Shown in pieces: positions 10,036 to 42,332 of a DNA stretch of 64,000 nucleotides. How positions within the stretch are numbered: position 1 is the stretch's first letter; every line of letters starts with the position of its first letter. The DNA comes from an uncultured Ruminiclostridium sp. Lineage in GTDB: Bacteria; Bacillota; Clostridia; Oscillospirales; Ruminococcaceae. The position numbers and the translations under genes were made by a program. Below the pieces are notes generated by a model that worked only from the letters and a program-made list of their open reading frames with translations, did not search any database and was not told the origin of the DNA. The stretch lies in contig CANQXF010000003.1 in NCBI GenBank assembly GCA_947627695.1, positions 62,001 to 126,000 on the forward strand. Direction: 5' to 3'.

Positions 10036-10069
10036 ATTTAATTATAGTATTGGAAAGGGAACTGTTGTA

Positions 10070-10498
10070 ATGAAAATAATGGCAGTCGATTACGGCGATA
10101 GTCATACGGGCCTTGCCTGCTGTGACAGAACTGAAACCTTGGCGTCTCCCCTTGGAGTAATCAATGAAAAAAACTTTAATATATGCGTTGAAAAAGTAGC
10201 GGCAGCGTCAGTCGAATATGAAGTCGGACTTATCGTTGTGGGAAATCCGATAAATATGAACGGCAGTGAGGGGCCTCGTTCTCAGATTTGCAGACAGTTT
10301 GCCGATCTTTTGCAAAATTATGTAGAAGTGCCTGTCGTTATGTGGGACGAGCGTTCAACTACCGTTACTGCTCATCAGATGATGAACGACGTGAACAAAC
10401 GGGGAAAAAAGAGAAAAGAAGTCATAGACGCAGTGGCGGCGGCAGTTATACTTGAAAATTATATGGCTTGGCGGGCTAATCATAAAGAAGAAACATAA
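10070..10498 (+). CDS. ruvX: Putative pre-16S rRNA nuclease/Holliday junction resolvase (YqgF/RuvX)
   Basis: This 142-residue RNase H-fold protein has the family blocks MAVDYGDSHTGLA, VVGNPINMNGSEGPRS, WDERSTT and a terminal DAVAAAVILENY. The conserved acidic residues (D in VDYG, E in DERST, D in IDAVAA) form the presumed metal site. The family is essential in many bacteria and processes the 16S rRNA 5' end in E. coli (YqgF). Assignment as a junction resolvase rests on fold. AAAGGGAAC precedes the ATG. A broken acetyltransferase gene follows. Confidence 0.92.
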   Translation: MKIMAVDYGDSHTGLACCDRTETLASPLGVINEKNFNICVEKVAAASVEYEVGLIVVGNPINMNGSEGPRSQICRQFADLLQNYVEVPVVMWDERSTTVTAHQMMNDVNKRGKKRKEVIDAVAAAVILENYMAWRANHKEET

Positions 10499-10509
10499 CG
10501 GTGATAACA

Positions 10510-11045
10510 ATGAAATATTTCAGGAAAATCACAGGCGAAAAGGTTTATTTATCGCCTATGTGCATTGAAGACGCCGAAACATATTGCACATGGCTCAATG
10601 ACGAATATGTTTCGGGAAGAATAGGGCTTTACGGAAGAGTCAATTCCGCCTCTGGCGAAAGGGAATACATAGAACGTGTACATAAGGAAAGAACACATTA
10701 CTATGCAATTGTCCTTACAGAAAATGATAAGCTCATAGGAAACATAGGCATAGAAGATATAGATGATATATCAAGAACCGCCAATATCGGATATTTATCG
10801 GCGAAGAAGAGAACAGACGAAAGGGTTATGGCAGTGAGGCTCTGCGCCTTGCCTGCAAGTATGCTTTTGATAATTTGAATTTACATTCTCTCCATCTTTG
10901 GGTATTTTCATTCAACGAAACGGCGATAAGCGTTTATAAAAAAGTAGGTTTTAAAGAGGCAGGCTGTCTGAGAGAATCATATTATTTTAACGGAAAATAT
11001 CACGACCATATTTTAATGGATCTTTTAAAAGACGAGCTTAAATAA
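10510..11045 (+). pseudogene. GNAT family N-acetyltransferase, single frameshift
   Basis: From the ATG at 10510 the frame reads MKYFRKITGEKVYLSPM and continues as a RimJ/RimL-type GNAT domain through NIGIEDIDDISRTANIGYLS. Near 10800 the frame is lost. One frame over, the match resumes as NRRKGYGSEALRLACKYAF, containing the acetyl-CoA-binding R/Q-x-x-G-x-G turn, then VFSFNETAISVYKKVGF and a normal C terminus ending at 11045. A single missing base around 10796-10800 would restore a full protein of about 178 residues. Since there is only one lesion, an assembly error is as likely as a true pseudogene. The acetylated substrate is unknown. Confidence 0.85.
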
Positions 11046-11113
11046 TTTGTCCTTTTTTGGAAAGCCTGTTCTAATTTTGTCATACGAACATACCATAAAA
11101 CGAGGTGATTTTT

Positions 11114-11401
11114 ATGGTATGTCGTTTTGACGATCTGCGGTGCAAGGAAATTATAAATATTAAAACAGGCTGCAAGCTGGGATTTCCCGATGATATCGAA
11201 TTTGATACCTGTACAGCGAAGATATGCAAGATAATTGTTTACGGAAAAGCCAAGCTGTTCGGGCTTTTAGGCAGGGAAGAGGACTTTATTATTCCCTGGT
11301 GCAATATTGACGTTATAGGACAGGATACTATTCTTGTGACCTGTGATTTTCCACCTAATACAAAATCTGGCGGTGGATTTTTGAAAAATTTGTTAAAATA
11401 G
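11114..11401 (+). CDS. YlmC/YmxH family PRC-barrel sporulation protein
   Basis: The 95-residue product (MVCRFDDLRCKEIINIKTGC) is a small PRC-barrel protein of the YlmC/YmxH group that is conserved in endospore formers. Typical blocks are FDDLRCKEIINIKTG, GREEDFIIPWCNI and VIGQDTILV. I chose the ATG at 11114 because GAGGTG lies directly upstream, instead of the GTG at 11105 that overlaps that site. The precise role is not established; it is linked to sporulation by distribution and mother-cell expression in Bacillus. It is a single gene between the broken acetyltransferase and rpsB. Confidence 0.8.
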   Translation: MVCRFDDLRCKEIINIKTGCKLGFPDDIEFDTCTAKICKIIVYGKAKLFGLLGREEDFIIPWCNIDVIGQDTILVTCDFPPNTKSGGGFLKNLLK

Positions 11402-11416
11402 ACGAAAATATTTTTA

Positions 11417-11445
11417 TTGTAATAATTACAGCTTTGTGCTATAAT
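11417..11445 (+). promoter_or_regulatory. Predicted sigma-A promoter of rpsB-tsf
   Basis: TTGTAA (11417-11422), 17 bases, then a perfect TATAAT (11440-11445). It gives a leader of roughly 115 bases before rpsB. Confidence 0.65.
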
Positions 11446-11451
11446 TATAAA

Positions 11452-11565
11452 GCGGTTTTTTGACCGCAAATCCACACCTTATGCTGTTTTCCTCGGTGCT
11501 GCATTCGCAGTTGGAAAAGACAACGCATTTGGGAGGAAAAAACCAAAAAACAGGAGGATACTTAA
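11452..11565 (+). promoter_or_regulatory. Structured 5' leader of rpsB, candidate autoregulatory RNA
   Basis: Downstream of the promoter the leader contains the small hairpin GCGGT/ACCGC (11452-11467) and then about 100 bases with further pairing potential (CTCGGTGCTGC and GCAGTTGG segments) before AGGAGG at 11551. Leaders of rpsB are often bound by S2 to repress the operon. I did not match this one to a known family, so the regulatory role is an inference from position. Confidence 0.35.
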
Positions 11566-12363
11566 ATGTCAGTAGTATCAATGAAACAGCTTCTTGAAGC
11601 AGGTGTTCACTTCGGACATCAGACAAGACGCTGGAACCCCAAAATGGCGCCTTATATTTTCACTGAAAGGAACGGAATTTACATCATCGACCTTCAGAAG
11701 ACCGTTAAAAAGTTGGATGAAGCGTATATGTTCGTTCGTCAAGTGACTGAGGAAGGCGGAGAAATTCTTTTTGTAGGCACTAAAAAGCAGGCTTCCGACA
11801 GCATAAAGGAAGAGGCTGAAAGAGCAGGAGCTCATTTTGTAAACGCAAGATGGCTCGGCGGTATGATGACCAACTTTGCCACTATCCAAAGACGTATCAA
11901 GAGACTTGAACAGCTCCAGGCTATGGCGTCTGACGGAACATTTGATCTGCTCCCCAAAAAGGAAGTCAGCAAGATGAATCTTGAGATCGAAAAGCTGGAG
12001 AAGTTCCTCGGCGGTATCAAGAATATGCACAAGCTGCCCGCCGCGCTGTTTATAGTTGACCCCCGCAAGGAGAGAATTGCCGTTGCAGAAGCAAAGAAAC
12101 TGGGTATTCCCATTGTCGCTATCGTTGACACAAACTGCGACCCTGACGAGATAGACTATATCATTCCCGGCAATGACGACGCTATTCGTGCCGTTAAGCT
12201 GATAGCAGGCGCAATGGCTGACGCCATTATCGAAGGCAATCAGGGCGAGACCGGTGAGGTAACAGGCGAAGAGGCTGAACCTGTACAGGAAGAAGAAACA
12301 GCTGAAGTTGAGGAAGCTGCTGCAGAAGAAGCAGCTGAACCTCAGCCTGAAACTGAAGAATAA
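11566..12363 (+). CDS. rpsB: 30S ribosomal protein S2
   Basis: This 265-residue protein matches S2 throughout ([20 protein letters not shown] at the N terminus, [34 protein letters not shown]). S2 binds the head-body junction of the small subunit late in assembly. The last 40 or so residues (about 226-265) form a Glu-rich acidic tail that is not part of the core fold and is common in some Clostridia. The gene is followed 20 bases later by tsf, the usual bacterial pair. Confidence 0.98.
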
Positions 12364-28781: not shown

Positions 28782-29411
28782 ATGACTATATTTTATAAAT
28801 ATTGCGGAAAAATGTACGCCAATATCACAAATCAGTGTCCTTGCTCCTGCGAGTTCTGCATAAGAAAAAACGGCGACAGCGTAGGAGATAACGACAGCTT
28901 ATGGCTTGAACATGAACCCAGCTACGAAGAAATTATCAGCGCATTTGACAGCTTTGACAAAACCGGCATAAATGAACTGGTTTTCTGCGGATACGGCGAG
29001 CCTATGATGAGAGCAGAACTGCTTTTGCAGGTTGCTGAATATGTAAAAAGCAAATCCAATATGAAAATACGAGTCAACACCAACGGTTTAGTTGCACTGA
29101 TGGACCCGTCATTCGATATTTCATCATTCAAGTGGAAGATAGACGCCGTTTCAATAAGTCTTAACGCCTCCGACCCTGAAAAATATCTCCGAATTACTCA
29201 TCCAAAATACGGCTTGCCGTCGTATAATGCAATGCTTCATTTTGCTATAGCAATACAGGAATATGTTCCCGACGTAATGCTGACCATCGTGGATAAGGAG
29301 CTTGGCGAGGAAGAGATAGAACTTTGCAAAATAAGAGCAAAAGAGGATTGCGGACTTCCTCTGAGGATAAGACATTATATTACAGATAACTCCGATGAGG
29401 AAAATGTATAA
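28782..29411 (+). CDS. Radical SAM protein, TatD-linked type (TIGR04038-like)
   Basis: This 209-residue small radical SAM protein carries the cluster motif C19-x3-C23-x2-C26 (NQCPCSCEFC), the GG-like turn FCGYGEP and the strand IRVNTNG. It resembles the short radical SAM proteins that occur next to tatD genes; no tatD is in the window. It lacks any SPASM or auxiliary cluster domain. The substrate is unknown. It lies just upstream of rubrerythrin but is separated from it by that gene's own promoter, and I see no link to the peptide locus that follows. Confidence 0.85.
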   Translation: MTIFYKYCGKMYANITNQCPCSCEFCIRKNGDSVGDNDSLWLEHEPSYEEIISAFDSFDKTGINELVFCGYGEPMMRAELLLQVAEYVKSKSNMKIRVNTNGLVALMDPSFDISSFKWKIDAVSISLNASDPEKYLRITHPKYGLPSYNAMLHFAIAIQEYVPDVMLTIVDKELGEEEIELCKIRAKEDCGLPLRIRHYITDNSDEENV

Positions 29412-30429: not shown

Positions 30430-30726
30430 ATGACAATTAACAAAAAAGAACAGGGAACAGAGCTTGAAATCATACTGGAAGGTCGTCTTGATACAACGAC
30501 GGCTCCTCAGCTTGAGGCAGAGTTAAAGCGCAGTGTCAACGGTATTACTGAGTTGATATTTGATTTTACAGGACTTGAATACATATCATCGGCAGGTCTT
30601 CGTGTATTGCTTGCCGCACAGAAAGTGATGAACAAACAGGGGACAATGGTTATACGGCATGCTAATGAGACTGTTATGGAAGTATTTGAAATAACAGGTT
30701 TTGTTGACATTTTGACAGTTGAATAG
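30430..30726 (+). CDS. STAS-domain anti-sigma factor antagonist
   Basis: The 98-residue protein is a single STAS domain (EIILEGRLDTTTAPQLEAEL, FDFTGLEYISSAGLRVLL). The serine of YISSAGLR is the residue that HATPase kinases of the SpoIIAB/RsbW type phosphorylate and PP2C phosphatases dephosphorylate in partner switching. The ATG at 30430 is preceded by GGAGG; the in-frame ATG at 30415 includes this site. The next gene encodes a sensor-phosphatase-kinase, and a second STAS domain of the same subtype is fused to the methyltransferase at 39873. It probably regulates the peptide locus (inference). Confidence 0.92.
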   Translation: MTINKKEQGTELEIILEGRLDTTTAPQLEAELKRSVNGITELIFDFTGLEYISSAGLRVLLAAQKVMNKQGTMVIRHANETVMEVFEITGFVDILTVE

Positions 30727-30819
30727 TAAAGTGTGCAATTAAAAATCGTTTTTGCTTAGAACCGTCTGTTATATCAACGGACATCTGAGGATCGATATTC
30801 ATTCAACTTAGAAATAATA

Positions 30820-32830
30820 ATGGAAAAGAAATGGAAATTTCGTCTTCAGCCCAAGCTGTTGCTTGGATTGGTGATTATGGCAGTAGTTCTGGCATTTTCG
30901 ATCATCTCAACCATTTCATGGCTTTTTGGAATCCTGATTGAAGAATATTATTCACAGGTCACTTTTGCTCAAGCGTCTATGGCATCTGATACCATTGACG
31001 GTGACCGAATAAAATCGTATTATCACGATGGTCAGTGAGGTGAAAAGGACGACTATTATGGAGAGATAAGCGGTTATCTCAATAATGTAAAAGCAAGAAT
31101 GGGATTAAAATATTTTTGTGTTGTCGTGACTGAAGAAAATGGTATGGTTTACATATGGGATACAGGCATAGAAGATAATGATGCAATCTGTGACCTTGGT
31201 GAATGCACTCTCTGTGCCGATGACGTCAGTGAAGCTATGCACAATGCTTTCGCTGTCAACGTAGAACGTACTGTTCTTATTACTGACAACATTTCCTCGG
31301 CATATGTCGCCGTTGTTGACAGCGATAATAATCCGGTTGCTCTTTCTATTGTCGGAATATCAATGGAAAGAGTAAAAGAGCATATAACAAAGTTTATGAT
31401 CCTGACGCTGGGAGTTACAGTAGTGGTACTCCTCTTTTCTACGATAGCTTATTATATCTATATCAGAAAAACCCTTATCACGCCGCTTAGTACGCTTCAT
31501 CACGCAGTTATAGGCTTGGTGAGCGATAATATGGAGCATCTTGACGAATTTAAGGTAAATATAAAAATCCAGAGATGAGGTCAGAGATCTTGCCGATTCC
31601 TTCCAGCATATGGTACACGAGCTTAATGATTACATACACAATCTTAGCCATGTAACCGCAGAAAGAGAACGTATCGGCGCTGAGCTCGATGTTGCCACAC
31701 ATATTCAGAAGTCTATGCTGCCGTGCACTTTTCCTGCTTTTCCGGGGCACAAAGAAATTGATATTTATGTTACAATGGATCCCGCAAAGGAGGTCGGCGG
31801 TGACTTCTATGATTTCTTTATGGTGGACAGCCGTCACCTTGCCATCGTTATGGCTGACGTATCAGGAAAAGGAGTTTCTGCGGCATTATTTATGGTTATA
31901 GGTAAGACGTTTATCAAAGACCACACCGCTGCTGAAACTGATCTTGGAGATGTGTTCAGTGAGGTCAATGATCTTCTATGCGAATCAAACAGCGAAGGAT
32001 TGTTTATTACGGCTTTTGAGGGTGTACTTGACCTTGTAAGCGGAGAATTTAATTATGTCAATGCAGGTCACGAAATGCCGTTTATCTGCCATTCCGGAGA
32101 AAGCTATTCGGTTCATAAAATCAAACCAGGATTTGTTCTGGCGGGTATGGAGGGAATGATGTATAAAGCGGGGAGTCTGACTCTTTCACCCGGAGACAAG
32201 ATTTTCCAATATACAGACTGTGTTACCGAAGCAACAAACTCGCAAAACGAACTTTACGGAATGGAGCGTCTGGAAAAAGTACTTAACGCCAACAAGGACA
32301 AAAGTCCTGCCGAATTGCTTCCTGCTGTTAAAGCTGATATAGATTTTTTTGTCGGAAAAGCGCCTCAGTTTGACGATATTACAATGCTTTGCCTTGAATA
32401 TAAAAGCAGAAGGAGGGTCAATATGCAAGAGCTGACCATTGACGCAACGATAGAAAATATTCCTATTGTAACAGATTTTGTAAATGAAAAGCTTGAAGAA
32501 CATAATTGTTCTATGAAGGTTCAAATGCAAATCGATGTTGCAATTGATGAGATATTCGGTAATATTGCCCACTATGCTTATAATCCGCAAATCGGTCCAG
32601 CAACTGTGCATGTGGAACTGACCGAGGCTCCGCTTTCTGTTATTATTACATTTATGGATAATGGCGTTCCGTATGATCCTTTGGCTAAATCTGATCCTAA
32701 TACAGCATTATCTGCCGACGAAAGAGAGATCGGGGGACTCGGCATATTTATTGTCAAAAAAAGTATGGATGCCATAGCGTATGAATATAAGGATGGCAAA
32801 AATATATTAAAAATAACAAAAAAATTATAA
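30820..32830 (+). pseudogene. Sensor-PP2C phosphatase-HATPase kinase protein, broken by a stop and a frameshift
   Basis: Read through, the gene encodes a transmembrane helix (LLLGLVIMAVVLAFSIIS), an extracytoplasmic sensor of about 170 residues, a second helix (FMILTLGVTVVVLLFSTI), a HAMP-like linker (DEVRDLADSFQHMVHEL), a SpoIIE-type PP2C domain (ATHIQKSMLP, VGGDFYDFF, MADVSGKGVSAALF, FDDITML) and a HATPase of the RsbW/SpoIIAB kind (DVAIDEIFGNIAHYAY, DNGVPYDP, GGLGIFIVKK). An in-frame TGA is at codon 73 (31036-31038), and one base is missing near 31573-31576 where the frame passes from ...NIKIQR to DEVRDLA. The 406-residue part from the ATG at 31610 is intact and could still make the phosphatase-kinase half without the sensor. 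One chain holding both phosphatase and kinase for STAS proteins is a compact partner switch. Confidence 0.88.
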
Positions 32831-32855
32831 TTGAAAGCAAGAGAGAATAATAAAA

Positions 32856-33181
32856 ATGGACCACTTTTCAACAATAGTTCCCATAATTATTTTTGTAGTT
32901 TTGATAGCCGTTTCAATTTTTATAATAGTGCTAAATCGTCGTTTGAATGAAAAAGCACCGGAAGAAAGAGTGAAGGCTACATTTATCTGCAGAAGGCAAT
33001 CTACTGATTTAGATGTAAACTTTGTTGCCAATAATACTTATTTTTTCTGAAATTTGATGTAAACGGAAAAATTAAAAAGTTTAGAGTCAGATTAAGTACA
33101 TACAGACAATACAAAGATTTAAAAGGACAGCTGTGGATACTTGTAATTAAAAGAAAACATTTTGTTGATTTTATTGTATGA
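32856..33181 (+). pseudogene. DUF2500-like small membrane protein with a homopolymer frameshift
   Basis: The ATG at 32856 starts MDHFSTIVPIIIFVVLIAV, a single transmembrane helix, then basic residues and RVKATFICRRQSTDLD. The frame ends at a TGA after a run of six T (33041-33046). One frame over, KFDVNGKIKKFRVRLSTY and KGQLWILVIKRKHFVDFIV continue to a stop at 33179-33181, as expected for the beta domain of DUF2500 proteins. One T more, or two fewer, in the run would restore about 108 residues. A homopolymer error in the assembly is possible. Function is unknown. Confidence 0.75.
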
Positions 33182-33211
33182 GCACAAAAAATTTAAAAAG
33201 AGGAATATAAC

Positions 33212-33685
33212 ATGATGAAAACTATTTTCAGAGAAAAGAGCATGCAGCGTGTTTCCTCGCCCGAACAGCTAAATGATTACATAAGAGTGGCAAAACCCGG
33301 TATATTGGTCACTTTATCAGCCGTAATAATTTTGCTGATAGGTTTTATCGTGTGGGGCGTTGTTGGTACTCTTGAAACTAAAGTAAATACCGTTGCCGTT
33401 TCCGGTTCAGATAAAATTATATGCTATATTAAGGAAGCTGAAATATCAGATATTGAGAAAGGCGACGTTGTACATATTGGTGATTATGAATATACCGTGA
33501 CAGAAATTTTTTCTGAACCCATTGCCGTAGATGAGAGTTTTTCTGATTATGCGTTGCATATTGGTGATCTCAAGGCGGGAGAATGGGTATATTCTGTTAA
33601 ATTAAACGGTTCGCTTCCGGATGGCGTTTATGCTGCTTCTATCATAGTAGACAGTGTTTCGCCAATTTCTTTCTTGTTTAATTGA
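33212..33685 (+). CDS. Short HlyD-like secretion protein of an NHLP-type exporter
   Basis: The 157-residue protein has a cytoplasmic N terminus with FREKSMQRVSSPEQLNDYI, the usual opening of NHLP/NHLM secretion proteins, one transmembrane helix (about 30-52, LVTLSAVIILLIGFIVWGVV) and a beta-rich extracellular part. Family members of about 400 residues add a lipoyl/coiled-coil hairpin; here most of that is missing and only the stem and part of the barrel remain. The reading frame is clean, so the short form may be natural in these Gram-positive loci. It lies 9 bases before the C39 exporter gene and should couple the transporters to release of the peptides. Confidence 0.78.
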   Translation: MMKTIFREKSMQRVSSPEQLNDYIRVAKPGILVTLSAVIILLIGFIVWGVVGTLETKVNTVAVSGSDKIICYIKEAEISDIEKGDVVHIGDYEYTVTEIFSEPIAVDESFSDYALHIGDLKAGEWVYSVKLNGSLPDGVYAASIIVDSVSPISFLFN

Positions 33686-33694
33686 GGTGCGGCA

Positions 33695-35884
33695 ATGGCT
33701 AATAAAAAGCAAATTGTACTTGGACCTATAACAAAAGGCGTTGCAAAGGTCCCTGTCGTTATGCAAATGGAAGCTTTGGAATGCGGCGCAGCATCTCTTA
33801 CAATGATACTTGCTTATTACGGCAAGTGGATACCGCTGGAACAGGTGAGAAAAGATTGCGGCGTATCCCGTGACGGTTCCAATGCAAAAAATGTTTTAAA
33901 AGCAGCTCGCAGTTATGGTTTAACTGCCAAGGGATATCGTTACGAGCCTGAACAGTTAAGGGAAAAGGGAAAATTTCCGTGCATAATCCATTGGAACTTT
34001 AACCATTTTGTTGTTTTATGCGGATTCAGAGGCAATAAAGCAGTGCTTAATGATCCCGCAAACGGCAATTATTCTGTTTCAATGGAAACATTTGATAAGA
34101 GCTTTACCGGAATTTGCCTGATGTTTGAGCCTACTGATAGCTTTGAACCGGGAGGAAAGCCTAAGAGTGTATTGTCTTTTGCAAAAAAACGTTTAGTCGG
34201 CACTGGCTTTGCTATTGCCTTTGTAGTCCTTGCCACCGTTATTACTTCATTGATAGGAATGATCCAACCGGCTTTTGCACGAATTTTTTTAGACAGGCTG
34301 CTTACAAATGAAAATCCCGAGTGGTTTTATCCGTTTCTTGGCTTATTGGCGTTTTTGTCAGTCATACAAATAATTGTGGCATTTATTGAAGCAAAATCAA
34401 AACATTTGATTGAAGGCAAGCTGGCAGTTATTGGAGATACATCTTTTCTTTGGAAAGTTCTACGTATGCCGATGGAATTTTTCTCTCAACGTATGGCCGG
34501 AGACATACAGCAGCGTCAAGATTCAAACGGTACTATTGCAAACGATCTTGTTAATACATTTGCTCCTCTTGTGCTTAATGCGATCATGATGATATTCTAC
34601 CTTGCGGTTATGCTCAGATACAGTTGGGCACTTACTCTCATAGGTATAGCTTCCATTTTGATAAATCTGATAATGTCACGTATTATTTCAAAAAAACGTG
34701 TGAATATCACCCGTGTTCAGATGCGTGATGAGGGAAAACTGGCCGGTTCGACCGTTGCAGGAATTGAAATGGTCGAGACAATTAAAGCGAGTGGCGCAGA
34801 AAACGGATATTTTGAAAAGTGGTCCGGATATCAGGCAAGTGTAAATACTCAGCAGGTAAAATATGCAAAGCTGAATGAATATCTCGGAATGATCCCGAAT
34901 CTTGTGTCGCAGCTTACAGGTATTGTCGTACTGATACTCGGTGTTTTCTTTACAATACAAGGCAATTTCACTGTCGGTATGATAATGGCGTTTCAGGGCT
35001 TTTTGACATCGTTTACCGAACCTGCAATGACGCTTATTTCTGCTGGTCAAACAATACAGGAAATGCGCACGCAAATGGAACGAATTGAAGATGTAATGGA
35101 GTATCCTACTGATATAAACTATAAGAATGAAACAGACGATAACGGTGATACAGAATATGACAAACTCTCTGGCAGGCTGGAAATGAGGAATGTAACTTTC
35201 GGATATTCACGCCTTGATGAGCCTTTGATTGAAAATTTCAATCTTACTTTAGAACCGGGCAGGCGTGTTGCTTTTGTAGGTGGCTCGGGTTGCGGCAAAT
35301 CTACTCTTTCAAAGCTGATTTCCGGGTTGTACCAGCCTTGGAGTGGAGAGATACTGTTTGACGGAAAGCCTATAAAGGATATTGACCGCAGTGTGTTTAC
35401 CGGTTCGCTGGCTGTTGTGGATCAGGATATTATTCTTTTTGAAGATACGATTCGCAACAATATTAAAATGTGGGATTCCTCAATAGAGGACTTTGAGATG
35501 ATACTGGCAGCGAAAGACGCTCAGCTGCATGAAGATATAATGCAGCGTGACGGCGGATATAATTACGTTATAACCGAAGGCGGCAAGGATTTTTCAGGCG
35601 GTCAGCGTCAGCGTATGGAAATTGCTCGTGTTTTGGCTCAGGATCCTACAATTATTATTATGGACGAGGCTACCAGCGCATTGGATGCAAAAACGGAGTA
35701 TGACGTGGTTCGCTCTATTAAGGACAGAGGTATCACGTGTATTGTTGTTGCTCACAGGCTGTCTACGATTCGTGACTGTGATGAGATAATTGTTTTGGAT
35801 CACGGAAAGGTGGCTGAGCGGGGAACGCATGACGAACTGTATGCGCTGAACGGCTATTATACACAGCTCATCTCCAATGAATAG
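33695..35884 (+). CDS. NHLP-type bacteriocin exporter with C39 leader peptidase (TIGR03796-like)
   Basis: This 729-residue protein cleaves and exports peptides. Residues 15-150 are a C39 cysteine peptidase with C30 (ECGAAS), H104 (FNHFVVL) and D120 (NDPANG), the full set for cutting after double glycine. Residues about 165-450 hold six transmembrane helices. The ATPase follows: Walker A GGSGCGKST (about 529-537), signature FSGGQRQRME, Walker B IIIMDEATSALD. All catalytic residues are present, so it should be functional. The substrates are most likely the double-glycine precursors at 41107-41845. A second ABC protein follows 11 bases later; the two are the standard pair in NHLP/Nif11 peptide loci. 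Confidence 0.93.
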   Translation: MANKKQIVLGPITKGVAKVPVVMQMEALECGAASLTMILAYYGKWIPLEQVRKDCGVSRDGSNAKNVLKAARSYGLTAKGYRYEPEQLREKGKFPCIIHWNFNHFVVLCGFRGNKAVLNDPANGNYSVSMETFDKSFTGICLMFEPTDSFEPGGKPKSVLSFAKKRLVGTGFAIAFVVLATVITSLIGMIQPAFARIFLDRLLTNENPEWFYPFLGLLAFLSVIQIIVAFIEAKSKHLIEGKLAVIGDTSFLWKVLRMPMEFFSQRMAGDIQQRQDSNGTIANDLVNTFAPLVLNAIMMIFYLAVMLRYSWALTLIGIASILINLIMSRIISKKRVNITRVQMRDEGKLAGSTVAGIEMVETIKASGAENGYFEKWSGYQASVNTQQVKYAKLNEYLGMIPNLVSQLTGIVVLILGVFFTIQGNFTVGMIMAFQGFLTSFTEPAMTLISAGQTIQEMRTQMERIEDVMEYPTDINYKNETDDNGDTEYDKLSGRLEMRNVTFGYSRLDEPLIENFNLTLEPGRRVAFVGGSGCGKSTLSKLISGLYQPWSGEILFDGKPIKDIDRSVFTGSLAVVDQDIILFEDTIRNNIKMWDSSIEDFEMILAAKDAQLHEDIMQRDGGYNYVITEGGKDFSGGQRQRMEIARVLAQDPTIIIMDEATSALDAKTEYDVVRSIKDRGITCIVVAHRLSTIRDCDEIIVLDHGKVAERGTHDELYALNGYYTQLISNE

Positions 35885-35895
35885 GGAGGGTTCTT

Positions 35896-38109
35896 ATGGG
35901 TTGGTTTGACGAACAAATAAAGCAGCGAAAAGAATATGATTCTACCGTTTTTGAGGAAGCATTCATAGGAATTTCCGATGCTGTTACAGGTTCACATTTT
36001 TCATCAGTATTTGCCGACGAAAAAAGTCGTGCAAAAGATGCTATAGATGAAATTTTAAAATATTATCATGTAAAGACTAGAGATGTACCTGAATCCATTA
36101 AAGATATAAACGAGCAGTTGGAATATCTTATGCGTCCTCATGGTATAATGCGCAGAACTGTCCATTTAGAAAAGGGCTGGCATAAAGATGCTATCGGAGC
36201 TATGCTTGGAATAAAAAAATCCGACGGTTCCATTGTGGCTTTGATTCCGGTCGGCATGTCAGGATATACATTTTTTGATGCCGGAACGGGAAAGAATATA
36301 AAAATTTCCGGCAAAAACGAAGATATTTTTGAGATCGAAGCAATTGCTTTTTATAAGCCCTTTCCTTTGAAAAAAATAAATATAAGGATACTGCTTGGTT
36401 ATATAGCTGAAATTCTTTCTGTTTCGGATTATGTAATGGTAGCAATTGCCACACTTGCCGTTACAATGATCGGTTTGCTCGGTCCAAAGCTTAATCAATT
36501 GTTATTTGGAACGGTCGTTGAAAATGGAGATATTACTCTGCTTTTATCCATAGCTGTTTTTTTAGTATGTATGACTATTTCTTCACAGCTGATTGGAGCG
36601 ATAAAATCCCTTATTATGGCAAGAATATCTACTAAAATGAATGTTACTGTTCAGGCAGCCGCAATGGCACGTGTTATGTCGCTTCCTGCTTCATTTTTTA
36701 AGGAATACAGTTCGGGCGAGTTAGCTATGCGTATGCAGCATATAAATATGCTTTGCACTATGTTAGTCGACACGGTTCTTGCAGCAGGACTTACATCACT
36801 TTTTTCTCTTATTTATATTTCTCAGATATTTTTCTTTACACCTGCTTTGGCTGCTCCTGCACTGATCGTTATTTTATTTACAGTTTTATTCTCTGTAATT
36901 TCTGCGTTTGCCAAGATGAAAGTATCAAAAAAGCAATTGGAATGCAGCGCAAAAGTCAGCGGTATGAGTTATGCTTTGATTTCGGGCGTTCAGAAAATAA
37001 AGCTTGCCGGAGCAGAAAAGCGCGCATTTGCAAGATGGGGAAAGCTCTATGCTGATCAGACTAAAATTACTTATCATCCACCTAAAATTATATTATACAA
37101 TAATGTCATTATAACGCTTATTACACTGGTCGGTACATTTGTTATTTATTATATGGCTGTTGTAAACAATGTATCGGTAGCTGACTATTATGCTTTCAAT
37201 ACGGCCTATGGTATGGTATCGGGAACATTTATGTCACTTGCCGCTATTGCTCTTACTGCTGCAAATATCAAACCGATCCTTGATATAGCAAAGCCGATAA
37301 TGGACACTGTTCCGGAGGTATCAGAGGGAAAGCAGGTCATTACACGCTTGTCCGGAGGCGTTGAACTCAGTAACGTTTCTTTCAGTTACAATAAGAGTAT
37401 GCCGAATGTTATAGATAATTTATCATTAAAAATCAGACCCGGTCAGTATGTTGCAATAGTTGGTTCAACAGGGTGTGGAAAATCTACTCTTATGCGTATT
37501 ATGCTTGGATTTGAAACACCTCAGAAGGGAGCCGTCTATTATGACGGAAATGATCTTTCCGGAATTGACTTGAAATCTCTCCGCCGTAACGTGGGAACAG
37601 TTATGCAGGAAGGAAAACTGTTTCAAGGCGACATATTCTCAAATATTACAATTTCTGCACCGTGGTTGACTATGGACGATGCATGGGAAGCGGCTGAGCT
37701 TGCCGGAATTGCAGACGATATTCGCCGAATGCCTATGGGTATGTACACTTTGATTTCAGAGGGAAGCGGCGGAGTGTCAGGGGGACAGCGGCAGCGTCTT
37801 ATGATTGCAAGAGCTATTGCTCCCAAACCCAAAATTCTTATGTTTGACGAAGCTACAAGCGCATTGGACAATATTACTCAAAAAATTGTATCTCAATCTC
37901 TTGATAAGCTGAAATGCACAAGAATCGTTATTGCACATCGACTTTCTACAATAAAACAGTGTGACAGAATAATATATCTTGAAAAAGGTAAGATTGTTGA
38001 AGACGGCAGCTATGAGGAGTTGATAGCAAAAGGAGGCAAATTTGCCGAATTGGTTGCAAGGCAGCGTCTTGACAGCGAGTCTGAAATGACAAAAGAGGCA
38101 GTTGTTTAG
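35896..38109 (+). CDS. NHLP-type bacteriocin exporter, second ABC permease/ATPase (TIGR03797-like)
   Basis: The 737-residue protein begins with a non-peptidase cytoplasmic domain (about 1-150, with a cyclic-nucleotide-domain-like feel and no C39 residues), then a six-helix permease (about 165-460) and an ATPase with Walker A GSTGCGKST (about 521), signature VSGGQRQRLMIARA and Walker B ILMFDEATSALD. This is the partner half found beside C39 exporters in NHLP/Nif11 clusters. AGGGAGG precedes the ATG. The two ABC proteins may work as a heterodimer. Confidence 0.92.
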   Translation: MGWFDEQIKQRKEYDSTVFEEAFIGISDAVTGSHFSSVFADEKSRAKDAIDEILKYYHVKTRDVPESIKDINEQLEYLMRPHGIMRRTVHLEKGWHKDAIGAMLGIKKSDGSIVALIPVGMSGYTFFDAGTGKNIKISGKNEDIFEIEAIAFYKPFPLKKINIRILLGYIAEILSVSDYVMVAIATLAVTMIGLLGPKLNQLLFGTVVENGDITLLLSIAVFLVCMTISSQLIGAIKSLIMARISTKMNVTVQAAAMARVMSLPASFFKEYSSGELAMRMQHINMLCTMLVDTVLAAGLTSLFSLIYISQIFFFTPALAAPALIVILFTVLFSVISAFAKMKVSKKQLECSAKVSGMSYALISGVQKIKLAGAEKRAFARWGKLYADQTKITYHPPKIILYNNVIITLITLVGTFVIYYMAVVNNVSVADYYAFNTAYGMVSGTFMSLAAIALTAANIKPILDIAKPIMDTVPEVSEGKQVITRLSGGVELSNVSFSYNKSMPNVIDNLSLKIRPGQYVAIVGSTGCGKSTLMRIMLGFETPQKGAVYYDGNDLSGIDLKSLRRNVGTVMQEGKLFQGDIFSNITISAPWLTMDDAWEAAELAGIADDIRRMPMGMYTLISEGSGGVSGGQRQRLMIARAIAPKPKILMFDEATSALDNITQKIVSQSLDKLKCTRIVIAHRLSTIKQCDRIIYLEKGKIVEDGSYEELIAKGGKFAELVARQRLDSESEMTKEAVV

Positions 38110-38261
38110 AGGTTAAATAAAAAATAACAAAAAATTCTAACAATTTTTTATTTGTTCCGTATAAATATATGAAAACAAAATTAACTGATCAAAATGATTA
38201 CTCTAACCTATATAATTTTATTGTGTTGAGATAGAAAAAACGACTATATGAGGAATATATA

Positions 38262-38456
38262 ATGGATAAAACAGAAGATATTTTGATTGCGCTGTTTGAT
38301 TTTCAACGGTTTGAAGGAAATGTGCACTTGGATAAAATAATAGGTTTAGATCGTAAAAATGCATTTGGCATACCGTTGAATGACAGTGAACTGGAAGTCA
38401 ATGCTGCCGGAGAGTTTGATACATGGCGGACTCGTACGGAGGAAAACAAAAAGCTA
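38262..38456 (+). CDS. Small leader-like protein overlapping the sigma factor gene
   Basis: A 65-residue frame (MDKTEDILIALFDFQRFEGN), with its TGA at 38457-38459 overlapping the next ATG by ATGA. Residues about 37-51 read IPLNDSELEVNAAGE, closely resembling the L-S/N-D-x-E-L-E-x-V-A-G-G end of the precursor leaders at 41107-41606 but without the double glycine. The tail FDTWRTRTEENKKL is charged. It is preceded by GAGGAA. It might be an anti-sigma peptide, a sensor of exporter activity, or a diverged precursor. I do not recognise the family with certainty. Confidence 0.65.
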
Positions 38457-38968
38457 TGAACACTGTCATCACTCCCGAAGAACTTTATAGTGACTATCAC
38501 ATTAAGGTTGCACGATACATAAGTGCTCATATAAAAAACGAGCATGACAGGGAAGACCTCCTTCATCAAGTCTTTCTGAAAGCAATTTCGTCTTTGGATA
38601 AATATGACCCTTCCAGGAGTGCGCCCGGTACTTGGCTTTATGCAATTACTCGAAATGCGGTGACTGATTATTACAGGGAAAAGGCGCATGAACCTGTTCC
38701 TGTTGCGTTAGATGAATCTGCTATCCTGCCTGACAAAGGATACGACCATGTATTTATGCAAGACACGCTGGAAGCCCTTGCATCAGCATTGGAGCAACTT
38801 CCTGAACGAGAACGAAACATTATTATTTACAGATTTTATCATGGCTTGTCGGCTCAGGAAACAGCAAAATTGATAGGAGTCAGTTATGCAAATGAACGTT
38901 TTTTGCAGCATAGCGCACTAAAAAAACTTCGTCAATTGTTAGACGAAAATGAGCTTTTTGAATACTGA
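38456..38968 (+). CDS. ECF-like RNA polymerase sigma factor
   Basis: The 170-residue protein has sigma region 2 (DREDLLHQVFLKAISSLDKYD, TWLYAITRNAVTDYYR) and region 4 (LEALASALEQLPERERNII, GLSAQETAKLIGVSYANE with helix-turn-helix), without region 3, as in ECF sigma factors. I chose the ATG at 38456, which overlaps the previous stop and has GGAGG about 13 bases upstream; the earlier in-frame ATG at 38423 lacks a site. It may drive the peptide genes, and may be the target of the HATPase kinase upstream, although ECF factors normally have different anti-sigma proteins. Confidence 0.88.
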   Translation: MNTVITPEELYSDYHIKVARYISAHIKNEHDREDLLHQVFLKAISSLDKYDPSRSAPGTWLYAITRNAVTDYYREKAHEPVPVALDESAILPDKGYDHVFMQDTLEALASALEQLPERERNIIIYRFYHGLSAQETAKLIGVSYANERFLQHSALKKLRQLLDENELFEY

Positions 38969-39009
38969 AAAACATAGAATCGTCTTGATAAAAAGTAGAA
39001 AAAGCAATC

Positions 39010-39297
39010 ATGTACAATCAAAATGATCAAAAAACTGAGCAGGTTAAAAAGAAGCAATTTTTACTGAAAAGCTTCCATGAAGCGTTAAAAGAGCAGGACA
39101 ACGAACCTCCGAAGCCAAACGAACTTGACTCTACCTGCGGGATAACAGATGATGAGCTTGTCAAGCGCTTTCGTGAAGAGATAAAAACGAGGAAAATCAA
39201 AGTCAAAGACTGCCCGTTACCGGTTACGACCACTAGAAAAAAAGCATCATATATAAAATATCCGGACGGGAGACGTATTTATGGAAATGAATCCTGA
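39010..39297 (+). CDS. Possible antitoxin paired with the zeta-toxin remnant
   Basis: The 95-residue charged soluble protein (MYNQNDQKTEQVKKKQFLLK) has a Lys-rich N terminus, a DDELVKRFREEIKTRKIKV helix and a C terminus KYPDGRRIYGNES. No family was recognised with confidence. Its 3' end overlaps the start of the zeta-like frame at 39281 by 17 bases, the arrangement of an antitoxin-toxin pair. Alternatively it is an unrelated cytosolic protein. No clear ribosome site is visible (GTAGAAAAAG). Confidence 0.55.
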   Translation: MYNQNDQKTEQVKKKQFLLKSFHEALKEQDNEPPKPNELDSTCGITDDELVKRFREEIKTRKIKVKDCPLPVTTTRKKASYIKYPDGRRIYGNES

Positions 39298-39833
39298 GAT
39301 AATCGTCTTTGCAGGTCCAAACGGAAGTGGAAAAAGCACTGTAACAAAGACGACAAAAATTATTTACCCCTACATCAATGCAGACGACATAAAGAGGGCA
39401 ACTCAATGCACTGATTTGAGGCGGCTGAATTAGCAGAAGGATATGCGTGAATAAGTTTTAGATGTACATAAAAACTTTTACATTTGAAATTGTTATGTCT
39501 ACCGAATGAAATATAGATCTCCTTCGCAGTGCAAAGGAACAAGGTTATTTTTTATCCGCTGTATTTATGTTTTAACGGCAGATGTGAATATAAATATTCA
39601 CCGTGTAATGCGAAGATTTGTTTCCGGTGGTCGCGATGTGCAAAAGCTAGATACTATCGTGCTCTTTCGCTTATTCCTCAGTTGCTTGAGGTATTTGATA
39701 TATATCATATTTATGATAATATCGATATGACGTTCAGAATATTTTAAAAGAGGAAAAACGAGTTTTTTACTGGGAAAATAACTTTTGGAGCAAGGCAGAT
39801 ATCGCAAAGCTGACAGGATATGATATTCATTGA
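39281..39833 (+). pseudogene. Zeta-toxin family kinase pseudogene, multiple lesions
   Basis: The frame opens MEMNPEIIVFAGPNGSGKST (Walker A of zeta-type kinases), then YINADDIKR, and is lost near 39415 by a missing base. Recognisable pieces continue in changing frames: TFEIVMSTE followed by a stop, NIDLLRSAKEQGYF, YVLTADVNINIHRVM, RALSLIPQLLEVFDIYHIYD, and WENNFWSKADIAKLTGYDIH to a stop at 39831-39833. At least three frameshifts and two in-frame stops are needed, so this is true decay and not a sequencing slip. Intact relatives phosphorylate UDP-GlcNAc or other small molecules. It lies inside the peptide locus between the sigma factor and the methyltransferase-STAS gene. Confidence 0.85.
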
Positions 39834-39872
39834 ACATACAACAATTCAACATAACAGATAGGAGGGGCGAGA

Positions 39873-41084
39873 ATGTCAAATTTATACGAAGAGGTCAACC
39901 CGATATTTAATACGGCAAAGACAACATTACACCAACTTGTTCAGGCAGGTGTAGCGGAAGCGGTTGAATTTGAAAATGCATTGAATGAATTAGAACCCGA
40001 AACAAGCCAATATTCAGCAGATGAAAAATTTTATTCAAGCGGACCTCTTGAAAGCTTAAACAAACTTATGCTAGAGTTGCGTTATAATATCGCCAACAGA
40101 GAAATAGCACTTGCAGGGAACAAAAATGTGTTAGATTTGGCCTGCGGGTACACACCTAGAGGCAAATACCTTATCAACAACGGATACAATTACATCGGAG
40201 GTGACCTTCCTGCAGTAACTAAAGTGATGGATCGTTTGAACGATATGCTTATGGAAGGCAAAGGAACTTATGTTGCGACAGATGTTACAAACAGCGCTTC
40301 CGTGCTGGCAGCTGCGGACAAAATGGAGGGACCTGTAACAATTTCTAGTGAAGGAGTTATGGTATATCTGGATATTTCGGAAAAACAGGCAATGTGGCGC
40401 AGTATTCATGATGTTCTTTCAAAGCACGGCGGAGTATGGGTCACCACGGATTTTGAGGTGGGTCTTTCCTTTAAAGCGGTTGCAGCCGCTATGATGGGTG
40501 AACGCTCTATGGAAGTTTTAAGAAAAGATCATCAGGAGTTTAACCGTCAGTCTGATGCAACCATAAAAACCGTTCCTGTTGACGAGGCTGAACGCTTGCT
40601 GAAAGAAAACGGACTTTTAGTGGAAAAACACCCAATGTGGTCGCCTGATCTTCATTTGACTCAGCTTGATGCTTATCCCGACGATATGCGCAAAAAGATT
40701 ACTGCCTGCTTGGAAAAGGTTTATATATGGGTGGTTAGCCTTGATGAAGCAGCGAGTGCCGATACGGTCAGTACAACTGCGAAAGGACTAAAAATAACCA
40801 ACAGCATTTCCGACAGTAGCTTAAATCTGACCCTGATCGGACGTTTGGACACTATCAGTGCACCGCAGCTGTTAGAGCTTTTTCAGGATATGCTCAAAGA
40901 GCATGAGATAACAAAGATCACAATTTTTGCAGGAGAGCTTGAGTATATATCCTCAGCGGGACTGCGTGTTATCCTTCAAATGATAAAGCATGTCGGAAAT
41001 GACGCTTTGACGTTTGAACAGCCTAATGAGCTTGTTTTATCTATTTTGGAGCAAACAGGCTTTGCAGATATGTTAGGACTTTAA
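39873..41084 (+). CDS. SAM-dependent methyltransferase fused to a C-terminal STAS domain
   Basis: This 403-residue protein has two parts. Residues about 60-285 are a class I methyltransferase resembling the LCM/PF04072 carboxyl methyltransferase group: NVLDLACGYTPRGKYL (SAM loop), YIGGDLPAVTKVMDRL, ATDVTNSAS and SEGVMVYLDISEK. Residues about 308-403 are a STAS domain (LTLIGRLDTISAPQLLEL, GELEYISSAGLRVILQMI) very like the stand-alone STAS protein at 30430, with the phosphorylatable serine kept. AGGAGGGG precedes the ATG. The precursor genes follow directly (22 bases). It could methylate the exported peptides, or a regulator, with the STAS part tying its activity or location to the partner switch. 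I know of no described enzyme with this fusion in a peptide locus. Confidence 0.85.
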   Translation: MSNLYEEVNPIFNTAKTTLHQLVQAGVAEAVEFENALNELEPETSQYSADEKFYSSGPLESLNKLMLELRYNIANREIALAGNKNVLDLACGYTPRGKYLINNGYNYIGGDLPAVTKVMDRLNDMLMEGKGTYVATDVTNSASVLAAADKMEGPVTISSEGVMVYLDISEKQAMWRSIHDVLSKHGGVWVTTDFEVGLSFKAVAAAMMGERSMEVLRKDHQEFNRQSDATIKTVPVDEAERLLKENGLLVEKHPMWSPDLHLTQLDAYPDDMRKKITACLEKVYIWVVSLDEAASADTVSTTAKGLKITNSISDSSLNLTLIGRLDTISAPQLLELFQDMLKEHEITKITIFAGELEYISSAGLRVILQMIKHVGNDALTFEQPNELVLSILEQTGFADMLGL

Positions 41085-41106
41085 ATTTAAAAAAGGAGAA
41101 ATTACA

Positions 41107-41322
41107 ATGGACGAAAAAATTATTGCAAAACTGAAAGAGGCAAAGTCTGTCGATGAAATGATAGATCTTGCCAAGGCAAACGGTGTTGAACTTGCTAAGG
41201 AGAAAGCACAGGAATTGTTTGATAAATTTAATTCCAACGGTGAGCTTAACGATGATATTCTTGATTCTGTTGCAGGCGGAATTGTGGATAAGGTCAAGGA
41301 TTTCTCCAATAAGCACCTGTGA
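41107..41322 (+). CDS. Nif11-like double-glycine precursor peptide 1
   Basis: The 71-residue peptide has a Nif11-type leader (KLKEAKSVDEMIDLAKANGV, then GELNDDILDSVAGG) ending in Gly-Gly at 57-58. The predicted core after cleavage is IVDKVKDFSNKHL, 13 residues, with no Cys, Ser-rich or Thr-rich stretch. Heptad spacing of I, V, V and F suggests an amphipathic helix. The C39 exporter at 33695 should cut it. AAAAGGAG lies upstream. The core resembles that of the decayed precursor at 41872. Confidence 0.88.
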   Translation: MDEKIIAKLKEAKSVDEMIDLAKANGVELAKEKAQELFDKFNSNGELNDDILDSVAGGIVDKVKDFSNKHL

Positions 41323-41375
41323 TCTAAAGCAAGTAAAACCTATACGTTGTTACATTATAAGGAAAGGAATTATTT

Positions 41376-41573
41376 ATGAAAAACGATCTTATTCAAAAAC
41401 CAAAGGAAGTAAAAAATAAAGAAGAGCTCCATTTAGATGTTGAGCTTTCTGAAGGCGAACTGGAAACGGTTGCGGGAGGTAAGTCTGTTGTTATTTCCAA
41501 TGGTGTTGTGAAAAAGGATTCATTGGAAAATATTTCAAATATGAATTCTACAAACAGTATTCTCAACAAAAAG
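41376..41573 (+). CDS. Double-glycine precursor peptide 2
   Basis: A 66-residue peptide with a short leader ending LDVELSEGELETVAGG (Gly-Gly at 34-35) and a 31-residue core rich in Ser, Asn and Val (KSVVISNGVVKKDSLENI, then NMNSTNSILNKK). There is no Cys, Trp or aromatic residue in the core. The leader is shorter than in precursors 1 and 3 and lacks the Nif11 helix, keeping only the terminal cleavage element. AAGGAAAGGA precedes the ATG. The stop TAA is at 41574-41576. Confidence 0.82.
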
Positions 41574-41605
41574 TAAATTATTATTGAAAGGAGTTTATTA
41601 GTATT

Positions 41606-41842
41606 ATGGAGAAAGAGGAATTTTTAGCGACCCTCAAAAAGGAAAAAACTGTTGAAGAAATTCGTGCTCTTGCAAAAGAAAACGACATTGAGCTTACCGA
41701 TGACGAGCTTGAAGCTGCTGCAGGAGGAACCTTCACCGTTCTTTCAGATAAGCCGTCGGTATCTTTAAACGGAAACAAATCTGCCGCAAATGGGCTTTCC
41801 GAAAAAAATCCTGATTATACGCCAACTCTGTATCCCCACGTT
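41606..41842 (+). CDS. Double-glycine precursor peptide 3
   Basis: The 79-residue peptide has a leader with the Nif11 helix (FLATLKKEKTVEEIRALAKE) and ELTDDELEAAAGG, Gly-Gly at 40-41. The 38-residue core (TFTVLSDKPSVSLNGNKSAA to YTPTLYPHV) holds several Ser/Thr and three Pro but no Cys. The lack of Cys rules out lanthionine or sactionine bridges. AAAGGAG lies upstream. The stop TGA is at 41843-41845. Confidence 0.85.
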
Positions 41843-41871
41843 TGATTTTCCCAAAAGGCGAAGAAAAAGCT

Positions 41872-42065
41872 ATGGACTGTGATGAACTTTTAAAAACCGC
41901 AAAAAACTCCTGAAGAACTTCTGTCGCTTGCGAAGGCAAAGGAACTTCTGGATATGTTGGTATGTAACGACGGAGAACTCTCCGATGAACAGCTTGAAGT
42001 TAGCTGTGTCCGGGGGTATTATCGACAGTATCAAGGAGTGGGTTGGAAGCCTGTTCGGGAGATAA
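41872..42065 (+). pseudogene. Fourth precursor peptide, frameshifted twice
   Basis: Starting at the ATG at 41872 the frame reads MDCDELLKTAK and stops after a run of six A. One frame over it continues TPEELLSLAKAKELLDMLV and NDGELSDEQLEV. A second extra base near 42000 shifts to AVSGGIIDSIKEWVGSLFGR and a TAA at 42063-42065. Repaired, this is a precursor with a Gly-Gly leader and the 15-residue core IIDSIKEWVGSLFGR, an amphipathic helix akin to precursor 1. Both lesions are single extra bases, the first in a homopolymer. Confidence 0.75.
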
Positions 42066-42332
42066 TCATACTCATCTCTCAACTTGCCTTGACAAACTCT
42101 GTTGCGGCGTTTTCCGCTGATTTCTGACTATGGCACTGAGCTGTCGGGCGCTTGACCCGAACGGTAGGTTTACATACAAAATACAAAAGCTCGGCGCTGT
42201 TGCCTGCGGCGGATACATATTAAATATTTTTTTCAAAACGCTTTTATTTAAGTTTTAAATATGAAACGCTCCCCTTTGACAGTATTTCAAAGGGGAGCTT
42301 TTTTGTCAAAAGGAAGGCCAAGCGGGAAAATT
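42066..42332 (+). other. Gene-free stretch after the precursor genes
   Basis: Apart from the terminator at 42268-42304 I see no credible gene or repeat here. A short frame follows the decayed precursor but has no recognisable content. Confidence 0.6.
42268..42304 (+). terminator. Rho-independent terminator of the peptide locus
   Basis: GCTCCCCTTTGA, a seven-base loop and its 12-base exact complement are followed by TTTTTTG. It closes the plus-strand peptide locus and faces the converging minus-strand DHHW gene. Confidence 0.9.

Follow-up and report, generated by a model that had tools for sequence, protein, structure and literature searches.

The closest described relatives of the locus reported here are the NHLP/Nif11 cassettes, in which exporters of the TIGR03796 and TIGR03797 families accompany double-glycine precursors (Haft, Basu and Mitchell 2010, PMC2887384), and the lah cluster of Lachnospiraceae C6A11 with LahT, which likewise has a C39 exporter and several Nif11-type precursors (PMC6363468). 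In the parts of these sources that were available, the main text of the former gave no passages on STAS, anti-sigma, phosphatase, sigma factor or SpoIIE, and the passages on the lah cluster describe no partner switch, with the word "phosphatase" occurring 0 times in the main text. Here we analyze a locus at positions 30430 to 42065 of a 64,000-nucleotide stretch of contig CANQXF010000003.1 from an uncultured Ruminiclostridium sp. (hereafter, the window). The locus shares both exporter families and double-glycine precursors with the cassettes, however, its HlyD-like protein is short, its precursors score under the family cut-offs, and a partner switch lies alongside. The parts of that switch resemble the Rsb/SpoIIA switches of Bacillus, with the same STAS serine, a HATPase kinase, a SpoIIE-type PP2C and the STAS fold of SpoIIAA, except that here they are tied to a peptide exporter.

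An initial annotation, made from the sequence alone, had proposed that peptide export and partner switching are joined here in a way not previously described. A literature search, with subscription papers and bioRxiv mostly outside its reach, returned no paper joining NHLP peptide export with a partner switch, and the joining itself recurs across Clostridia. On the strength of gene content and comparison among relatives, we suggest that the locus is of the NHLP/Nif11-like peptide export type and contains two distinct control units, and we assign a probability of about 0.55 to the reading that the partner switch gates export or tailoring of the peptides.

Partner-switch genes recur at NHLP exporter loci

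The window comes from a single contig of genome G000, a 2.7 Mb assembly of 67 contigs. All genes of the locus lie on the + strand, in the order STAS, broken sensor-PP2C, HATPase, a short remnant, HlyD-like, ABC1, ABC2, a small open reading frame (ORF), an extracytoplasmic function (ECF) sigma factor, an uncharacterised ORF, a broken P-loop gene, methyltransferase-STAS, three double-glycine precursors and a decayed fourth precursor. Both ATP-binding cassette (ABC) exporters are of the NHLP type, as the initial annotation had predicted: the C39 peptidase/permease/ATPase ABC1 (33695 to 35884) scores 949 bits against TIGR03796 (cut-off 853), and the permease/ATPase ABC2 (35896 to 38109) scores 719 bits against TIGR03797 (cut-off 709). 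The short HlyD-like protein (33212 to 33685) is present as well, matching only the N-terminal part of TIGR03794 (positions 1 to 84 of 421; 28 bits, cut-off 156), and no full-length HlyD partner of this family was found at the locus. The predicted free STAS protein is of the anti-sigma-antagonist type (30430 to 30726; PF01740, 55.5 bits; TIGR00377, 70.5 bits, over cut-off). It is followed by a gene for a sensor and SpoIIE-type PP2C phosphatase (30820 to 32411), now broken, and by a predicted HATPase_c_2 serine kinase, whose gene has a ribosome-binding site and an ATG of its own (32423 to 32830; PF13581); the PP2C (146 bits) and HATPase_c_2 (62 bits) domains both lie within 31610 to 32830. The phosphorylatable serine of the YISSAGLR motif is kept in 94 of 94 STAS rows, both STAS domains of the window included, and the window's kinase retains all residues that are invariant across 69 kinase rows, nucleotide-binding ones among them.

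Loci for comparison came from three sets: 40 ABC1 loci of the genus (71 genomes scanned, 22 with ABC1 over cut-off), 55 loci of the family and order from an evenly drawn 396 and 394 genomes, with four sub-cut-off order loci excluded, and a named set holding the 80 of 582 relatives whose ABC1 most resembles that of the window. Of the resulting 176 loci, the window included, 152 remained as representatives after dereplication at 95% ABC1 identity; 75 of these are named loci, picked by ABC1 likeness to the window, 49 are evenly drawn and 28 belong to the genus. Many locus flanks end at contig ends. Within 10 kb, STAS genes occur at 89 representatives, PP2C at 74, HATPase at 72, all three at 60 and any of them at 104, and an HlyD-like homologue, short in the relatives too, is present at 149. 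PP2C homologues, some of them fragments, were found in 73 of the 151 representative loci other than the window. STAS is found at 26 of the evenly drawn loci (all three parts at 18) and at 15 of the genus loci (all three at 8). When only the 88 loci with 7 kb on both sides are counted, 53 have STAS, 39 have all three and 65 have any, and the parts co-occur pairwise (STAS-HATPase, p = 2e-8; STAS-PP2C, p = 6e-5; PP2C-HATPase, p = 4e-14). The profiles were made from the genus loci plus the window; applied to the remaining 135 loci, they detected STAS in 79, PP2C in 72 and HATPase in 70.

The 40 genus loci (613 kb) contain 26 STAS genes against 2.57 expected and 14 HATPase genes against 1.91 expected, where the expected counts derive from Pfam counts and rounded genome sizes, the observed counts from home-made profiles, and the Poisson figures ignore relatedness. 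STAS, PP2C and HATPase genes were all absent from 20 regions surrounding other ABC exporters in the genus (352 kb; 15 in NHLP-bearing genomes). The upstream same-strand neighbor of the HlyD-like gene, at 300 bp or less, is a switch gene in 53 of 129 loci (HATPase 36, STAS 13, PP2C 4), and the gene order STAS-PP2C-HATPase-HlyD-ABC1-ABC2 recurs among the loci of relatives. Locus L213, from the isolate Anaerocolumna sedimenticola CBA3638, has the exporters and precursors together with STAS and PP2C-HATPase. The association of switch genes with NHLP loci is not due to chance. It is not exclusive either, and an exclusive association was rejected: 26 of the 253 STAS genes in the 22 ABC1-bearing genomes sit in the 40 loci, genomes of the genus have up to 29 STAS genes each, and free switch modules exist away from exporters. 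The initial annotation had asked whether homologous loci lack these genes or whether the genes recur without exporters; they do recur elsewhere, yet at NHLP loci they are about ten times as dense as expected.

Linkage to an exporter is also reflected in the kinases. A tree of 105 kinase domains (70 linked to NHLP loci, 35 not known to be) requires 14 changes of the linkage label, compared with 29.6 when the labels are shuffled, and 0 of 500 shuffles were as low. The unlinked set was drawn from 41 regions selected for a HATPase gene at a distance from known NHLP loci; among these regions, L280 proved to be NHLP-linked and was relabeled. A single group of 44 kinases includes 42 that are NHLP-linked, with modest support (SH-aLRT 83; 51 of the 102 inner branches of the tree are open). 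Its two exceptions are a module on contig C2 of the window's own genome and L283, which lies at a contig end with its neighbors unseen. Distances between loci correlate with those of ABC1 at 0.77 for the kinase, 0.71 for STAS, 0.81 for the HlyD-like protein, 0.75 for the sigma factor and 0.30 for the phosphatase (0 of 999 permutations as high in each case). Such a pattern fits a stable core of kinase, STAS and exporter whose sensor can be exchanged, or it may reflect no more than inheritance of the genes together.

Lesions in the sensor-phosphatase gene

The initial annotation described a chain of sensor, phosphatase and kinase, which is not an intact gene here, as seen from comparison with the sister locus L045 (genome G068), which is 98.0% identical over 11.8 kb and 95.4% over the last 0.9 kb and was used gene by gene. 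In the sister, the sensor-phosphatase frame is open across 540 residues and does not include the kinase, which has a gene of its own. In the window, the sensor frame is terminated by a TGA at 31036 to 31038, a frameshift follows near 31568, and another, near 32411, fuses the phosphatase frame to that of the kinase, which retains its own ATG at 32423 and is identical to the sister kinase at 133 of 135 residues. Two near-invariant positions of the phosphatase are altered too, a proline (74 of 75 rows) to serine and a glycine (73 of 74 rows) to cysteine. Because of these two substitutions, an assembly error is an unlikely origin of the lesions as they appear in the one assembly seen. An intact PP2C is present in relatives; the window's copy is broken.

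Ratios of nonsynonymous to synonymous substitution rates (dN/dS) between window and sister are 0.04 to 0.05 for the exporters, 0.07 for STAS, 0.17 for the methyltransferase-STAS fusion and 0.22 to 0.23 for the sensor-phosphatase. The HlyD-like protein gives 0.59 from 9 changes, and the small ORF and the sigma factor give 0 from only 1 and 2 changes. Between the kinase and the HlyD-like gene lies a short DUF2500-like remnant (32856 to 33050) of 64 codons, the same length as in the sister, which at 19.5 bits does not reach the cut-off of 33.5.

The initial annotation also had the PP2C-kinase protein read an extracellular signal. An intact homologue of the sensor (L147) was modeled, with modest confidence, as an alpha/beta domain between two long helices (pLDDT, the predicted local distance difference test, 70.7; pTM, the predicted template modeling score, 0.44), which makes an extracellular sensor plausible, although in this genome the phosphatase that it would act through is broken. 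Family searches gave only weak Cache-like matches for the sensor (E 0.086; E 0.003), and the best 50 matches listed in a fold search with the L147 model were phosphatases, response regulators with such domains and similar proteins, with no sensor fold assigned.

A second NHLP locus in the same genome, on contig C11, has its own STAS, HlyD-like and HATPase genes (L054, L137). There, STAS lies directly behind ABC2, and Nif11-like peptides, a sensor-phosphatase and a MATE-HATPase protein lie about 15 to 23 kb before ABC1. The sensor-phosphatase is an intact paralogue, encoded 15 to 19 kb before ABC1 together with the MATE-HATPase protein, and its phosphatase domain is 75% and its sensor 49% identical to those of the broken enzyme. 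Judging from this likeness, it could stand in for the lost enzyme. The switch of this genome is probably either stuck or served by the paralogous phosphatase.

Sigma unit, precursors and STAS fusions

The sigma factor (38456 to 38968) has regions 2 and 4 (PF04542, 60 bits; PF04545, 44 bits; TIGR02937, 99.7 bits) and matched ECF sigma structures, in agreement with the initial annotation; no region-3 family is among its Pfam matches. Its placement in the same unit as the switch did not hold up, since STAS and the sigma factor are independent across the 88 loci (17/36/11/24, p = 1), as are the sigma factor and HATPase (p = 0.49; 7 kb). We therefore dropped the ECF sigma factor as the default output of the switch. 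The strict partner of the sigma factor is instead the leader-like small protein (38262 to 38459), whose stop overlaps the sigma start. The small protein belongs to a family of 47 hits; across the loci compared, its ORF occurs only together with the sigma factor (23 of 23 loci), and 5 sigma loci are without it. The family pattern, LFDFQRF..N.RL ... LSDDELExVNAAG(E/D), is like that of a Nif11 leader with the double glycine mostly replaced, with AAGG in some rows, and the window's protein matches no Pfam or NCBIfam family at E 0.1. The pattern suggests that the small protein is possibly a leader mimic that reports exporter occupancy.

An ECF-type promoter candidate, CTAACA-N15-CGTATAAA, lies at 38137 to 38165 and is the sole match to the strict pattern in the genome. 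Across the 71 genomes the strict form has 9 matches compared with 10 for a reversed control, so only the placement of the motif is informative. Seven of the nine lie at the sigma units of G000, G035 (two, one before a precursor), G066, G067, G068 and G069; the others are in G065, about 2.3 kb from a partial ABC1, and in G046, unplaced. A looser form has 19 sites in 728 kb of 36 sigma-bearing loci, located before the small ORF (11), the sigma gene (2), precursors (5) or nothing recognized (1), and 5 sites in the 116 loci without the sigma factor (1924 kb), none before a recognized gene. The window has one site of the looser form and shuffled windows have 1.35 on average, so a single site means little. 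The placement of the motif suggests that the sigma factor is probably responsible for transcription of its own operon, as well as of precursor genes in some relatives.

Three double-glycine precursors are open, as the initial annotation stated. Precursor 1 (41107 to 41322) has a Nif11-like leader and ends GG|IVDKVKDFSNKHL (TIGR03798, 21.6 bits, cut-off 32.3), and is followed by precursor 2 (41376 to 41576; NF038167, 23.8 bits, cut-off 32) and precursor 3 (41606 to 41845; TIGR03798, 15.5 bits, under cut-off). In a decayed fourth precursor (41872 to 42065) the leader and the GG motif are in different frames. Double-glycine motifs are present, but no precursor of the window reaches a Nif11 or NHLP leader cut-off, and Nif11-like is therefore the right word. 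Radical SAM/SPASM proteins were recognized near NHLP exporters as 41 genes in 38 representative loci (for example L105:4189-5592; one was checked with Pfam), and none was recognized adjoining the precursors of the window. A TIGR04100 radical SAM protein at 28782 to 29411 (262.7 bits, cut-off 262) lies beyond the locus, and no tie to the peptides was found for it.

The methyltransferase-STAS fusion (39873 to 41084), also predicted, is present, and its gene ends 22 bp before a precursor gene. Its STAS half matches SpoIIAA from the complex with the anti-sigma factor SpoIIAB. The other half has a leucine-carboxyl-methyltransferase-like fold; compared with the leucine carboxyl methyltransferases PPM1/LCMT, it has about 14% identity, is fused to STAS and matches no Pfam methyltransferase family at E 0.1. 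Searches returned only STAS families in Pfam and no methyltransferase family in NCBIfam, and a four-row profile of the methyltransferase reached one general S-adenosylmethionine (SAM) methyltransferase structure (4e-5). The full-length fusion is present in 2 of 297 genomes of the family and in 7 of 384 of the order, is also found away from NHLP exporters, and stands alone in L245 and L304 (read by eye). Since it is rare and also occurs away from exporters, we rejected it as a core part and regard it as accessory. In genome G548, two methyltransferase-STAS genes (L306:2098-3921 and 10040-12219) are each followed by short double-glycine cysteine-rich peptides. STAS is fused to an APH-type phosphotransferase in other NHLP loci (L181:8254-9471, L104:18396-19586), and MATE transporters with a C-terminal HATPase_c_2 domain stand beside STAS/PP2C/HATPase modules (L077:2165-3940, L165:3575-5350, L212:16420-18252 and, in the window's own genome, L137:12104-13885). 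The domain make-up suggests that the MATE-HATPase protein is a transporter with a built-in partner-switch kinase domain. We make no such claim for a sodium:dicarboxylate symporter with a HATPase part in L204, where Pfam gave the transporter only, or for MATE-HATPase fusions in L249 and L265, where Pfam gave no HATPase.

An uncharacterised ORF (39010 to 39297) without an over-cut-off family, followed by a broken P-loop gene that we take to be zeta-toxin-like, occupies 39010 to 39860. Both diverge from the sister as well, the ORF with a dN/dS of 0.99. Positioned between the sigma factor and methyltransferase-STAS, they are possibly a decayed mobile pair.

Possible outputs of the switch

From gene content, conservation, association, unit independence, promoter placement and the lesions, we infer a phosphorylation cycle as follows. 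Unit 1, made up of STAS, sensor-PP2C and HATPase kinase, accompanies the exporter genes across Clostridia. The kinase would phosphorylate the conserved serine of the free STAS protein, and an extracellular cue would activate the membrane phosphatase. Dephosphorylated STAS would then capture the kinase, or act itself, and thereby license peptide export or tailoring, while through its fused STAS domain the methyltransferase would come under control of that kinase too. The ECF sigma factor, co-translated with the leader-like small protein, makes up unit 2 and would drive its own operon and, in some relatives, precursor genes. With the phosphatase of unit 1 lost here, phosphate should remain on the STAS domains unless a related intact phosphatase encoded elsewhere in the genome takes over. 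We speculate further that the STAS/HATPase pair gates secretion post-translationally, that its kinase also switches STAS-tethered enzymes (here of carboxyl-methyltransferase fold, elsewhere APH-type), opening maturation in step with export, and that the separate sigma factor and leader mimic match precursor supply to exporter occupancy; in this complete form the proposal is tentative and rather unlikely.

Several observations weigh against gating of export by the switch. The window's own switch is damaged, and genes of these kinds are common at sites without an exporter. In 48 of the 152 representative loci, many of whose flanks reach contig ends, the DNA available contains none of the three parts, so export does not require the switch. 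Outside the class, STAS lies within 10 kb of ABC1 in 0 of 6 loci (4 genomes of the 10 hit there). The sigma factor tracks ABC1 about as the kinase does, and the phosphatase does so weakly, thus the correlations may reflect joint inheritance of the locus. An alternative is that there is no functional link, and that common switch genes happened to land beside exporters and were retained by linkage. The abundance of STAS genes in these genomes, with most of them outside the 40 loci, would agree with this, as would a phosphatase that decays while the exporters stay conserved. We nonetheless consider it improbable given the tenfold enrichment, the empty control regions, the clustering of kinases by linkage, the distance correlation and the recurrent gene order.

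Regulation of the peptides through the local sigma factor, with the switch controlling that factor in a single pathway as the initial annotation allowed, would account for the presence of both in one locus and for a sigma factor that probably drives its own operon and some precursor genes. This is a very remote prospect, as the sigma factor is independent of STAS and HATPase across loci and has the leader-like small protein as its strict partner. Region 3 of sigma factors is the part contacted by SpoIIAB-type anti-sigma factors, and this sigma factor is without it. The main rival is a classical transcription switch, in which the kinase is the anti-sigma factor for a sigma factor encoded elsewhere that activates the operon of the exporter. 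The RsbU/RsbV/RsbW kind, to which the parts belong, has sigma factors as its best-known outputs in the portion of the source available (PMC8256260), and the SpoIIAA match of the fusion's STAS half points the same way. However, only 3 of 152 loci have a group-3 sigma homologue at 10 kb or less from ABC1, and there is none near the locus of the window. The match of the kinase to RsbW structures is weak (E 0.028), and the STAS-enzyme and MATE-HATPase fusions point to other outputs, so we view this explanation as doubtful. The same fusions and the scarcity of group-3 homologues speak for export or tailoring as the output, which the independence of sigma factor and STAS, together with the rare accessory fusion, favors over the local sigma factor.

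We know of no account of how gut Clostridia time the maturation and release of Nif11-like peptides. A phosphorylation switch linked to the exporter would offer a concrete handle on that timing and, if the proposed gating is correct, would mean that partner switching reaches beyond sigma factors, to ABC peptide export and to enzymes tagged with STAS. The arrangement STAS-PP2C-HATPase upstream of HlyD-ABC1-ABC2 can also serve as a search signature for new peptide loci. Two known systems may be precedents, by analogy, for a switch that gates export. According to the part of the source available, the BtrU/BtrV/BtrW switch of Bordetella controls type III secretion, with BtrU and BtrW described as acting on the process of secretion (PMC8256260). 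MlaB is a STAS protein in the MlaFEDB ABC transporter, as described in the portion of that paper seen (PMC7367683). The secretion machine of Bordetella is of a different kind, and MlaB belongs to a lipid transporter, whereas here, as known from the genes, the STAS protein and its kinase adjoin an ABC exporter of peptides.

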